Part shown: positions 4,625 to 7,241 of the stretch, one piece after another
How positions within the stretch are numbered: the first letter of the stretch is position 1
Layout of the letters: every line of letters starts with the position of its first letter
Origin: Gammaproteobacteria bacterium
Lineage (GTDB): Bacteria > Pseudomonadota > Gammaproteobacteria > Pseudomonadales > Azotimanducaceae
Direction of reading: 5' to 3'
Assembly: GCA_027295975.1 (NCBI GenBank)
Contig: JAPUJX010000608.1
Location: 1 to 11,463, forward strand
DNA: 11,463 nucleotides
The notes under the pieces: generated by a model
Told to the model about the DNA's origin: nothing
Database searches by the model: none
What the model saw: the letters and a program-made list of their open reading frames with translations, nothing else
Translations under genes and position numbers: made by a program

Positions 4625-5485
4625 ATGAAAATTGGCTATTTCGGTTTCAACAACGGCCCCTTGGCACAACCCGAGCCCATTGCGAGTTTGCTCAAATGCG
4701 CCGAAGACTCGGGGTTCGAGTCCGCCTGGACCGGTGAACATGTGGTCGTGATCGACCCTCAAGAGCCGCCGTCTCCGGTGCCGCCGGAGTTCCCGATGCT
4801 CGACACGGTGGCCACCCTGGCTTTCTCGGCGGCCGTCACTTCCCGTTTGAAACTGGGTTCCGGTATCATCCTCCTGGCCCAACGCAACCCCGTGATACTT
4901 GCCAAGGAATTGTCGACTATCGACGTTCTGTCCCAGGGTCGGCTGTTGTTCGGCGTTGGTGTCGGGTACGTGAAACGCGAGTTCGACGTTATTGGCGTGC
5001 CTTACGAAGAGCGCGGCGCGCGCACCAGCGAACACATCGAAGCAATTCGTGCGCTCTGGACTCAGGACAAACCCACATTCGACGGCCGTTTCACCCGGAT
5101 CTCGGGGGTGCAATCCAAGCCGATGCCGGTGCAGTCGCCTCACCCCCCCATCATCATCGGGGGGATGTCGCCCGCTGGATACCGTCGCGCCATCAACCAC
5201 GGCGATGGCTGGTACGGGTTCAATCAGACCGAAGACGAAGCCGCCGCATCGATCGAAGGTCTGCGGGAAGCGGCGCGTGCCGCCGATCAGGCCAGCAAAT
5301 TCGACGACCTCGAGATATCGATCACCCCGCGAGGCGCCATCGATGCCGATCGGGTGAAACGGTTTGAAGATCTCGGCGTCTCGAGACTGATCTTATTGCC
5401 AAGACCGGCGAGCGGCAGCGGAGACCCTCTGGACGGTATTCGCGCCTTTATCGAAGATACCGCCCGGCAACTCGACTTGGCTTGA
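4625..5485 (+). CDS. Luciferase-like monooxygenase (LLM class flavin oxidoreductase)
   Basis: This 286-residue protein has the bacterial-luciferase TIM-barrel pattern. The N-terminus MKIGYFGFNNG is followed by AEDSGFESAWTGEHVVV (residues 26-42), SRLKLGSGIILLAQRNPV, LSTIDVLSQGRLLFGVGVGY, and HPPIIIGGMSPAGYRRA with GDGWYGF. The segments match the LLM subgroup often annotated as F420-dependent. The cofactor could be FMN or F420, and proteobacteria more often use FMN. These enzymes oxygenate or reduce small organic molecules. The start has a GAGGA site within the tail of the previous gene, and the spacing of 11 bases indicates translation from the same transcript as the ABM protein. No typical intrinsic terminator follows the stop. 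Substrate unknown. Confidence 0.9.
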   Translation: MKIGYFGFNNGPLAQPEPIASLLKCAEDSGFESAWTGEHVVVIDPQEPPSPVPPEFPMLDTVATLAFSAAVTSRLKLGSGIILLAQRNPVILAKELSTIDVLSQGRLLFGVGVGYVKREFDVIGVPYEERGARTSEHIEAIRALWTQDKPTFDGRFTRISGVQSKPMPVQSPHPPIIIGGMSPAGYRRAINHGDGWYGFNQTEDEAAASIEGLREAARAADQASKFDDLEISITPRGAIDADRVKRFEDLGVSRLILLPRPASGSGDPLDGIRAFIEDTARQLDLA

Positions 5486-5794
5486 TGTCCGGAAATTGGG
5501 ATAACTGTCTGAGCGATTGGCGCCTGTAACACCGCGTTGGGGGTGAGCGGGCTTCAATCGTCAGCATGATTTTCGACGTGTGGCTAGTAGTGTCGTCGCG
5601 CAAAACCGGCAGTTCTTCGCCAGCGTTTGCCTACGCCGAAACCAACGACAAACGGTCTGTTTGCCATCCCCGGCTATCTGCTGACATCACATTGATATCG
5701 CAAACTGAAGATACCTTGGAGATCGAGGTTCAAACGTTGACGAGGTGGACCGCAGGTGTAAGCGTCGGGATCCCAAAACATCTGGAGACGCAAA
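5486..5794 (+). other. 309-base non-coding stretch upstream of the double-glycine peptide gene
   Basis: I see no convincing gene here. An open frame from 5566 to 5802 encodes 78 residues with no recognisable pattern; it has poor codon quality and no ribosome site, so I treat it as chance. The stretch should contain the promoter of the peptide operon. TTGACG at about 5737 is a good -35 match but has no matching -10 at the usual distance, so no promoter is assigned. There is no clear hairpin terminator after the oxidoreductase gene. The length could allow a regulated promoter or an untranslated leader. Confidence 0.5.
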
Positions 5795-5977
5795 ATGCGT
5801 GAACTCAACGAACAAGAAATGGAAGAGGTCAGTGGGGGTATCTTACCCCTCATCGCCGTCGCAATATCCTTTGCCGGTCATGTGGCCGGATTCAGTGGTC
5901 CTGCAACCTGGGCACTGAGTTCCATCGGACTGATCTTGAGCACCTTCTCGGCTGCCGTGTACGTGGACTCGATGTAA
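5795..5977 (+). CDS. Double-glycine leader peptide, putative class II bacteriocin/microcin precursor
   Basis: This 60-residue peptide opens with a canonical double-glycine leader, MRELNEQEMEEVSGG (residues 1-15), with the expected hydrophobics at -4 (Val), -7 (Met) and -12 (Leu) before the GG. Such leaders are recognised and cut by C39-peptidase ABC exporters. The predicted 45-residue core is very hydrophobic, rich in Gly, Ala and Ser, and contains a GHVAG (GxxxG) motif, the helix-packing element seen in class IIb bacteriocins. It has no cysteine and almost no charge (one His, one Asp), unlike cationic pediocin-type peptides. The ribosome site GGAG lies seven bases before ATG. Two small membrane-protein genes follow. 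No exporter is present in the window. It could alternatively be a secreted signal peptide. The leader call is strong; toxic activity is inferred. Confidence 0.8.
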   Translation: MRELNEQEMEEVSGGILPLIAVAISFAGHVAGFSGPATWALSSIGLILSTFSAAVYVDSM

Positions 5978-5992
5978 CCGGGACACGATCAA

Positions 5993-6018
5993 AAGTGGGG
6001 TCCCCCGGGACCCCACTT
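5993..6018. repeat. Perfect 12-bp inverted repeat (REP-like or intercistronic hairpin)
   Basis: The arms AAGTGGGGTCCC (5993-6004) and GGGACCCCACTT (6007-6018) are perfect complements with two bases between them, so RNA would fold as about 11 pairs with a four-base loop. No T-run follows on the plus strand, so it is not a standard intrinsic terminator. It sits between the peptide gene and the two small membrane genes. There it could stabilise or separate the upstream message or attenuate the downstream genes. The AAAAGTGGGGTC/GACCCCACTT arms also resemble REP palindromes linked to RAYT (REP-associated tyrosine transposase) elements, which is an inference from memory. Confidence 0.75.
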
Positions 6019-6051
6019 CCCCGTTTGACCCCATGGGACCGGGAGAAGACC

Positions 6052-6255
6052 ATGAACGACAGCCAAACCAGCTTTATGAGAACCGACCTCCGTGAGGCCG
6101 CCTACATGTTGGGTTTTGCGTGTCTGGGTACGGCGGTCGTCAGCTTCTACTCCACCCGGACCGGCATGTTGATCGGCGCAGCGGTGATCGGCATGACCCT
6201 GGGAAAACTGCTGGCGCGGATGTTGCGCCGAAGACCGAAAACCCCCGATGAATAA
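6052..6255 (+). CDS. Small two-helix membrane protein, candidate immunity protein
   Basis: I do not recognise a family. This start gives 67 residues. It is chosen because a strong GGGAGAAG ribosome site lies just upstream, whereas an earlier in-frame ATG at 5995 would read through the palindrome with an unlikely sequence. A short polar N-terminus (MNDSQTSFMRTDLREA) is followed by two predicted membrane helices, about residues 17-34 and 37-55, a tight turn between them, and a basic tail (ARMLRRRPKTPDE) expected to stay in the cytoplasm. Its 3' end overlaps the next small gene by eight bases. Small membrane proteins directly after a double-glycine precursor are often immunity proteins; here that role rests on position and topology only. 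Confidence 0.65.
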   Translation: MNDSQTSFMRTDLREAAYMLGFACLGTAVVSFYSTRTGMLIGAAVIGMTLGKLLARMLRRRPKTPDE

Positions 6256-6427
6256 ATCCCCGTATGGTCTCAGCCTCTGGATCATTACCTGTGTCGGTAT
6301 CGGTTTTGGCCTGGCATACCTCGATGGCGTCGGCGCGAAAGCCATCATCACAACCGCCGCCATCGTCGCCAGTGGCATAACGGTTCTGCTGCTCGGAGCC
6401 TGGGCCTTGAAGGCATCGAAGAAGTAG
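6248..6427 (+). CDS. Very small two-helix membrane protein, candidate immunity or accessory protein
   Basis: This 59-residue frame starts at ATG 6248 inside the last codons of the previous gene and ends at TAG 6425-6427, so translational coupling is likely. The product starts MNKSPYGLSLW and has two predicted membrane helices at about residues 8-24 and 31-54. A short loop (LDGVGAK) joins them, and a lysine-rich end (LKASKK) follows. I recognise no family. Hydrophobic composition through the full frame, good codon use and the overlap argue that it is real rather than chance. Together with the neighbouring small membrane gene it could protect the producer from the peptide encoded upstream, or help its release; this is inference. 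Confidence 0.6.
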   Translation: MNKSPYGLSLWIITCVGIGFGLAYLDGVGAKAIITTAAIVASGITVLLLGAWALKASKK

Positions 6428-6429
6428 AT

Positions 6430-6459
6430 CTGCCAAGCCCTGCCGAGACCTGCTAGCAT
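6430..6459 (+). promoter_or_regulatory. Candidate sigma-70 promoter for the Nudix gene
   Basis: CTGCCA (6430-6435, four of six matches to TTGACA) and TAGCAT (6454-6459, four of six to TATAAT) are 18 bases apart. TGC precedes the -10, giving an extended -10 element. A transcript would begin near 6466, about 23 bases before the TTG start, leaving room for the AGGAA ribosome site at 6475-6479. If real, the Nudix gene is expressed separately from the peptide operon. Confidence 0.4.
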
Positions 6460-6488
6460 GCCGTCCTTTTTGCCAGGAACTCACCCAC

Positions 6489-7241
6489 TTGGCCGACGAC
6501 AGAAAGACCCGGCATCACAACGATATCTACGGAAAAATCGAATCCCGACACGAGGCTGAGGAAGGTGTTTCGCCGCCCATCCCGGCTGCGACCGTGGTGC
6601 TGCTGCGTGACGGCGCCGACGGCCCCGAGGTTTTAATGTTGCGCAAGAACTCGAAAATCACCTTTGGCGGCATGTGGGTTTTTCCGGGCGGAAAGATCGA
6701 TCCGGAAGATTTCCCAGCCGATGGGGACATGCAGGCGGCAGCCCGCACGGCGGCGGTACGTGAGGCCGCCGAAGAAGCGAGCCTTGAACTCAGCCCCGAC
6801 GATTTCGTCTGGTTTGCGCATTGGACGCCGCCGCCAGGACCGCAAAAACGTTTTGCTACCTGGTTTTTTGCGGCACATCTGCGCGAAACGCACGAGGTAA
6901 AAATCGACGACGGAGAAATCGACGACCACACCTGGATTCGACCCGCCGATGCGCTCGCTCGTCACAACGCCCGCGAAATCGACATCGTCCCACCTACCTG
7001 GGTGACCTTATATCACCTGTCCCTATATCGGCCCGCCAGCGCCATGTTGCAACATTTCAGAGACAACGAGACCAAGGTTTACGCAACGAGGGTGGTAAAA
7101 GCCGCCGACGGTAGCCGCGTGGCAATGTGGCACGGTGATGCCGGTTACCAGGACTGGGATGCGGACATCGAGGGACACCGTCACCGCCTGTTGATGGCTA
7201 AAAGTGGTTTTGTGTTCGAAAACACCATCGAGCGGTACTGA
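6489..7241 (+). CDS. Nudix hydrolase (NUDT19-like long form)
   Basis: This 250-residue protein would hydrolyse nucleoside-diphosphate-linked compounds such as CoA derivatives or modified nucleotides. The core fold starts at PAATVVLLRDG (residues 32-42), and the Nudix box is GGKIDPED (67-74) plus REAAEEASLEL (91-101). Compared with the GX5EX7REUXEEXGU pattern, the middle spacer is 17 residues rather than 7, as in NUDT19-like and other long forms, and the late Gly is Ser98. The metal-binding Glu95 and Glu96 are present. C-terminal features such as DDHTWIRPADAL fit the family. The start is TTG, supported by AGGAA nine bases upstream; no ATG occurs before the first core strand. Long-form relatives are often CoA or acyl-CoA diphosphatases, which would suit the acyl-CoA enzymes nearby, but the substrate is not proven. 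Confidence 0.87.
   Translation: MADDRKTRHHNDIYGKIESRHEAEEGVSPPIPAATVVLLRDGADGPEVLMLRKNSKITFGGMWVFPGGKIDPEDFPADGDMQAAARTAAVREAAEEASLELSPDDFVWFAHWTPPPGPQKRFATWFFAAHLRETHEVKIDDGEIDDHTWIRPADALARHNAREIDIVPPTWVTLYHLSLYRPASAMLQHFRDNETKVYATRVVKAADGSRVAMWHGDAGYQDWDADIEGHRHRLLMAKSGFVFENTIERY

Follow-up and report, generated by a model that had tools for sequence, protein, structure and literature searches.

The window, which is the whole stretch of DNA that was analysed (11,463 nucleotides), is the entire contig C566 of a parent assembly of 3.72 Mb that consists of 680 contigs and is 77% complete. It features a cassette of a precursor gene followed by two genes for small membrane proteins, M1 and M2 (Table 1). 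The precursor is a 60-residue protein encoded at 5795-5977, as determined by translation of the window frame. Its leader has Leu, Met, and Val at positions -12, -7, and -4, and hydrophobic residues at these positions are the pattern described for double-glycine signals in the part of PMC11494933 cited here. The core contains no Lys or Arg, one Asp or Glu, and no Cys, its GRAVY value is 1.38, and the predicted mature peptide of 45 residues has an average mass of 4523.25 Da (4520.41 monoisotopic). Glycine makes up 8.9% (about 9%) of the core and 10% of the whole precursor. An AlphaFold2 model of the precursor features three helices, two of which form the core hairpin (pLDDT 89, pTM 0.42). Searching the PDB with this model in Foldseek gave no matches, and the precursor sequence profile gave three PDB matches, none of them convincing (best E 0.094). 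A Pfam match to EAV_GS in the window (E 6e-4; 19.9 bits against a cut-off of 25 bits) was taken as a chance hydrophobic match.

Table 1. Features of the cassette, with positions numbered from the first base of the window
Feature	Position	Strand	Basis or remark
GGAG, ribosome-binding-site-like, 5' of the precursor gene	5784..5787	+	read from sequence
Double-glycine leader of the precursor, MRELNEQEMEEVSGG	5795..5839	+	hydrophobic at -4, -7, -12; leader dN 0.03-0.06 among G000/G001/G002
Core, 45 residues (predicted mature peptide), and stop codon	5840..5977	+	predicted helix-loop-helix hairpin
Stem-loop, 11-bp perfect stem and 4-nt loop, between the precursor gene and M1	5993..6018	+	stem search, folding
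GGGAG, ribosome-binding-site-like, 5' of M1	6041..6045	+	read from sequence
M1, 67 aa, two hydrophobic segments and basic tail; proposed immunity subunit	6052..6255	+	hydropathy, co-occurrence, gene layout
M2, 59 aa, two hydrophobic segments; proposed core immunity subunit	6248..6427	+	hydropathy, co-occurrence, gene layout

The M1 frame at its longest starts at GTG 5995 and encodes 86 residues. The start was set at ATG 6052 because an ATG occupies this position in the corresponding frames of two genomes of the same genus, G001 and G002; the ATG of the window is also closely preceded by GGGAG. M2 starts at ATG 6248 and shares 8 bases with the 3' end of M1. Hydropathy shows two hydrophobic peaks in each protein, and neither has a match above the cut-off in Pfam or NCBIfam. 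The initial annotation had described a canonical double-glycine leader and two overlapping genes for two-helix membrane proteins of no recognised family, and all of this is confirmed. A comparison of M1 with M2 in hhalign gave a 34-column match with 9% identity and a probability of 80%.

The stem-loop is the same in G001 except for the two outer pairs, which are changed on both sides, and other genera mostly feature stems of unrelated sequence at a similar position. Of the 14 cassettes, 9 have a perfect stem of 8 bp or more within 100 nt of the precursor stop, versus 10 of 128 mechanically picked control frames (other long frames of the same loci) and 2.8% of 5,600 random windows. For stems of at least 6 bp the corresponding values are 13 of 14, 31 of 128, and 18%. 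The enrichment over the control frames has a p of 3e-6 for the longer and 6e-7 for the shorter stems, and the random control repeated with N-free windows gave 2.9% and 18%, respectively. These counts include G058 and G034, whose stems were found by stem search and not by folding. G002 is missing from the count because its stem contains a G-U pair; this stem does fold. Judged solely on folding energy, the 77-nt stretch of the window is unremarkable (z -0.93). Most of the stems are not classical terminators, because a long T-run follows the stem in G142 only. A scan of 5480-6520 for promoters and terminators found none.

Relatives and genomic setting of the precursor

A phmmer search with the precursor returned 13 relatives that are 61-93% identical, with a coverage of 95-100% in 12 of them and 85% in one. 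The named records that contain precursor relatives are three metagenome genomes labelled Gammaproteobacteria, Proteobacteria, and Pseudomonadales. A profile search of the databases found 110 proteins at E <= 0.01, of which 96 with E up to 2e-8 were aligned and the weakest 14 were left out. Both leader and core are conserved across the 96 aligned relatives, the leader strongly, which answers the question of leader conservation that the initial annotation had raised as a check. Hydrophobic residues at -4, -7, and -12 were found in 79 of 92 relatives by a scripted rule that also allows Ala or Thr at -4 and -7. The aligned cores mostly feature Leu-Pro after the double glycine, Lys or His at position 29 (76 of 97 rows), and Trp at position 39 (80 of 97), and glycine makes up at least 12% of the core in 81 of 95 relatives. 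The initial description of the core as hydrophobic, nearly uncharged, and free of cysteine is accurate for the window but does not extend to the wider family, in which the net charge ranges from -2 to +5 and Cys occurs in 12 of 92 cores.

One of the 13 phmmer relatives, together with some of the profile matches, is named "class IIb bacteriocin, lactobin A/cerein 7B family" by NCBI. The window precursor itself passes the cut-off of this NCBIfam family, TIGR03949 (29.6 versus 21.5 bits), and the peptide is therefore not wholly unrecognised, so that the earlier suggestion of an unstudied system falls short here. Only the leader and the beginning of the core (residues 3-34) lie within the match, and the G064 precursor lies below the cut-off (19.8 bits). 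The family name implies two peptides, which raises the alternative that the cassette belongs to a two-peptide (class IIb) bacteriocin and that only one of its two halves is seen in the window. The loci of G058 and G034, which have a second short double-glycine peptide, are in line with such a pair. The cassette, however, shows one peptide and no partner: no second double-glycine peptide lies beside it in the ORF lists of the window, G001, and G064, and the precursor profile has a single match in each of G000, G001, and G002, which makes the two-peptide alternative very improbable.

Both genus mates (G001 and G002) carry the precursor, M1, and M2 in synteny with the window. This synteny, the 110 profile relatives, and a dN below dS rule out that the genes are artefacts or chance frames. 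Pfam matches and synteny place the cassette of this genus, g1, between a luciferase-like monooxygenase gene and a NUDIX gene. Inspection by eye showed that the flanks differ between most genera, with an esterase-like frame in G064 and MATE-like frames in several g33 genomes. A luciferase-like monooxygenase gene is found near the cassette both in the window (4625-5485, upstream) and in G064 (L029:10897-11766, downstream), with ~36% identity. Because of this shared neighbour the neighbourhoods are not wholly unrelated, and the link between the g1 and G064 cassettes may be more than chance.

Other double-glycine peptides were observed as well. The loci L034:7270-8797 (G012) and L006:621-1716 encode a double-glycine peptide of another kind, whose core is rich in glycine; after it come several small proteins with a common C-terminal "DKRFK..WEK.P" motif, and together they possibly represent a further peptide-plus-partner family. 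Double-glycine peptides are also found at L113/L115 (G248, G361), at L089:7807-8378 (G090), and at L114 (G051), as a tandem pair in G248 and G361. These are followed by a hydrophobic protein of 95-103 aa with paired CxxC-like motifs, which looks zinc-ribbon-like by eye and is a candidate partner type.

Linkage, fusion, and evolution of M1 and M2

Co-occurrence was determined in 206 genomes of the family, of which the 14 with a strong full-length peptide match (E <= 8e-19) are counted as carriers; this cut was chosen after the gap had been seen, and the next full-length matches have E values of 5e-12 and 2e-10. The precursor profile matched 39 of the 206 genomes, many of these matches being to the leader only. 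Strong M1 matches were found in 13 genomes, all of them carriers, and M2 matches in 14 genomes, of which 13 are carriers. M1 matched 18 genomes in total, and the five weak matches (E 1e-4 to 8e-4, within frames of 233-409 aa) were set aside as chance. With the genomes treated as independent, Fisher tests of co-occurrence with the peptide gave a p of 1.1e-19 for M1 and 1.5e-18 for M2; 9 of the 14 carriers belong to one genus. The distance to the full-length peptide is at most 1.6 kb for all 13 strong M1 matches and for 13 of the 14 M2 matches, and the first of the two genes starts within 0.15 kb of the peptide in 12 of the 13 cassettes whose gene layout was determined. Absences in this survey are not strict, because scoring in many genomes was limited to the top 30 first-look candidates.

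In the 206 family genomes, M1 or M2 is seldom found where the peptide is lacking, which agrees with the three-gene co-occurrence proposed as a check at the outset, and the exceptions are few. G034 has the peptide and M1 without an M2 match, G059 has the peptide and M2 without an M1 match, and G171 has M2 without a peptide match. The weaker full-length peptides of G166 and G090 have neither an M1 nor an M2 match. The M2-like gene of G171 (L087:7712-7891), beside which no peptide was detected, is possibly an orphan immunity gene. An order-wide search of 390 genomes, with up to 16 candidates scored per genome, found a peptide match in 12, including the window's own genome and two family members, and these matches are mostly weak or leader-only. 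Reading by eye revealed an M2-like frame directly after the peptide in G508, which belongs to another family (peptide E 7e-14), and a partial M2-like frame after the peptide in G335 (peptide E 9e-10).

The gene layout was determined for 13 cassettes, with G034 left out, and every one of them begins with the precursor gene. M1 precedes M2 with an overlap of 4-16 bases in six cassettes (G000, G001, G002, G018, G061, and G142), and the order is reversed in one (G063). A single M1-M2 protein is encoded in G064 (140 aa) and G065 (139 aa), a single M2-M1 protein of 136-138 aa in G060, G062, and G058, and M2 alone in G059. The fused gene of G058 is located 1.3 kb from the peptide, and another short double-glycine peptide and another membrane protein lie between them. 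That M1 and M2 occur split, swapped, and fused both ways implies that they act together. The fusion in either order is strong evidence that the two work as one unit, and their joint action is most simply explained by a putative two-part immunity protein. A partner pair that is split, swapped, and fused in both orders would be unexpected to a specialist, and the natural fusions both ways hint at how the halves may pack. The predicted structure of the G064 fusion is a four-helix model of low confidence (pLDDT 57, pTM 0.32). A 136-aa membrane protein of G034 is similar to an M1-M2 fusion by eye; its hhalign probability is 0.4%, and it is not claimed as one. In G058 (L079:7509-10042) and G034 (L033:7354-8700), a second short double-glycine peptide and a membrane protein of 136-149 aa are found between or after the known parts. 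As to a mobile element as carrier of the cassette, a plasmid search with the peptide and the fused protein gave no match.

Comparison of G000, G001, and G002 determined a dN of 0.03-0.06 for the leader, 0.09-0.25 for the core, 0.15-0.23 for M1, and 0.21-0.23 for M2, with dN below dS in every comparison; the neighbouring luciferase-like gene has a dN of 0.04 (one pair). Slow change in the leader alongside fast change in the core and both partners fits a weapon with its immunity, and it also fits a fast-evolving ligand and receptor of any kind. The peptide could alternatively be a double-glycine factor that is secreted for a role other than killing, in biofilm formation, self-lysis, or signalling, and M1 and M2 could be its membrane receptor or guard. 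EbfG1-4 (PMC4997328) and the Neisseria Naps (PMC11798529), as described in the cited parts of these papers, are precedents for such a role, and the presence of the peptide in 3 of 3 g1 genomes and in 9 of 9 g33 genomes met in the family search suits a steady function. However, no regulator was noticed beside the cassettes in the ORF lists, and the fast evolution of the core, M1, and M2 suits conflict somewhat better, so that a non-killing role is considered unlikely. A bacteriocin remains the likely reading of the peptide. The initial annotation of the locus as a bacteriocin plus immunity unit is supported by the gene order, the co-occurrence, the fusions, the fast core evolution, and an intact exporter in the genus mates, but two further points, a peptide outside the known classes and of unusual charge, fall short.

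Proposed route of export and mechanism

The observation that no exporter adjoins the cassette is correct for the window, and a search for a C39 exporter in the rest of the genome had been suggested. No C39 domain was found in the window's own 77%-complete assembly, which, taken literally, is an outcome that the initial annotation had named as a refutation. In this assembly the best match to the G001 exporter covers the transporter part only (31% identity). In contrast, both genus mates feature a C39 ABC exporter of ~712 aa that adjoins a 415-aa frame with HlyD-type adaptor domains in G001 and a like-sized frame in G002. The Cys-His-Asp triad is intact in both exporters; the G002 exporter reading has a stop at codon 4 and an uncertain start. 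The exporter and the cassette are located on different contigs in G001 and G002, and they are separated by 53 kb and 1.66 Mb in the two carriers that consist of a single contig.

Comparison of the own assembly with the 7.7-kb G001 exporter locus revealed edge matches of 61 and 43 bases on contig C677 and a match of 174 bases elsewhere. The 43-base match ends at the last base of C677 (5,203). C677 and the G001 contig are collinear as far as the border of the exporter locus, with 85-90% amino-acid identity, and C677 stops at a glyoxalase-family gene, where G001 continues with a methylmalonyl-CoA mutase, the exporter, and the adaptor, as assigned by their domains. A DNA search of the own assembly did not recover the adaptor. 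With C677 ending at the border of this locus and the completeness of the assembly at 77%, the missing exporter is read as an assembly gap. A missing contig is the simplest reading of its apparent absence, and a true absence from the species is not favoured given the same collinearity and completeness.

A C39 match with E <= 1e-10 is present in 129 of the 206 family genomes and in 12 of the 14 carriers (not in G000 and G142), which is only a weak enrichment in carriers (p 0.05). The exporter is not a specific partner of the cassette, because it is also present in most genomes that have no cassette. TolC-type OEP domains were found in all four genomes searched, including the window's own. The peptide would plausibly be exported through a C39 exporter, an adaptor, and a TolC-type channel. 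Searches that demand a linked exporter would miss systems like this cassette.

The export genes also bear on the possibility that M1 and M2 are accessory parts, either helpers for export or membrane insertion or components of a complex with the peptide, and do not confer immunity. Constant linkage and fusion show joint action and not which action it is, and the lack of a Pfam or NCBIfam match above the cut-off leaves room for such a role. However, the C39 exporter and adaptor of the genus mates already provide export, and small inner-membrane proteins that adjoin the precursor gene are the usual immunity pattern in the cited parts of PMC9746304 and PMC10233263. An accessory role is accordingly given a low probability, well within the range of the unlikely.

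The cassette is real and conserved as judged from its sequences, and it is reasonably probable that it encodes a class II microcin-like bacteriocin together with a putative two-part immunity module and depends on an unlinked exporter. The C39 exporter would cut after the double glycine and ship the 45-residue hydrophobic hairpin through the TolC-type channel, and the peptide would insert into the inner membrane of competing relatives. In the producer, M1 and M2 would form an inner-membrane complex of four helices that binds or blocks the peptide. The stem-loop may stabilise or partly terminate the transcript, which would yield precursor in excess over M1 and M2. A more tentative proposal, to which we give somewhat less than even weight, is that the cassette represents a new Pseudomonadales microcin-like family, in which two two-helix proteins, with halves that are separate, swapped, or fused, would be jointly needed for immunity as a four-helix unit and the stem-loop would set the ratio of weapon to protection. 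In the literature searched, with preprints outside its scope, no functional description of the cassette was found, and neither the peptide family nor a fused two-part immunity protein was found described. A two-part immunity mechanism becomes directly testable with this cassette.

Comparison with characterized systems

The sources cited in this section are cited in part, and the statements drawn from them refer to those parts. Class II microcins feature a leader, a C39 exporter, an adaptor, TolC, and a small membrane immunity protein (PMC10233263, PMC9746304). Their leaders are double-glycine leaders of 15-18 aa, which the 15-residue window leader fits. Their immunity proteins are quoted as 51-216 aa long and have no common sequence features (PMC10233263, PMC9746304). 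M1 and M2 fit the pattern of a small membrane immunity protein adjoining the precursor by place, size, and hydrophobic segments only. Known class II microcins contain 12-26% glycine, and microcin-like matches are also found at 8-10% (PMC11494933); the window core, at 8.9%, lies below the former range. No exporter is found near the precursor as it is in class II microcins. The cassette is said to work like a class II microcin and is not filed as one, because its exporter is unlinked, the glycine content of the window core is low, and its activity is predicted. The low charge of the core, which had been taken as a departure from known classes, is no such departure, as a neutral or anionic charge is normal among microcins (PMC10233263).

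A 2022 review lists 15 characterised microcins, all of them from Enterobacteriaceae, and states that immunity proteins have no conserved sequence features by which they could be located (PMC10233263). In the present family, the immunity candidate can be followed from genus to genus by its sequence. A need for two immunity proteins has already been proposed for the putative microcin Mcc1229 (PMC10233263), and several small membrane proteins are found beside one candidate microcin in E. coli (PMC11494933). Non-killing roles are shown for two comparable systems. EbfG1-4 of Synechococcus have a role in biofilm formation (PMC4997328), and the Neisseria Naps are bacteriocin-like, have no detectable antimicrobial activity, and promote autolysis (PMC11798529). 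Like the window peptide, these are bacteriocin-like or double-glycine peptides from non-enteric bacteria; unlike the cassette, they are described in the cited parts without mention of an M1/M2-like pair.

Microcin-like examples that have been shown outside Enterobacteriaceae exist and look few, one being that of Moraxella (PMC2761928). In McbABCI of Moraxella catarrhalis, a gene for a 74-aa protein overlaps the double-glycine bacteriocin gene and was shown to confer immunity (PMC2761928). Compared by description, McbABCI resembles the cassette in featuring a double-glycine peptide outside Enterobacterales and a small overlapping gene. It differs in having one immunity gene and not two, in the overlap of this gene with the precursor gene, and in the presence of transport genes in the operon.

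The class IIa microcins, such as microcin V with CvaB/CvaA, are similar to the cassette in their 15-residue double-glycine leader, their hydrophobic core of ~4.5 kDa, and the adjoining genes for small membrane proteins, and the genus mates feature the corresponding C39 exporter, adaptor, and TolC-type parts. The core has no similarity to microcin V above the cut-off (Pfam MccV, 13.3 versus 27 bits). The cassette further differs from the class IIa microcins in that its exporter is unlinked, its activity is predicted, and it features two membrane partners that can be fused in either order.
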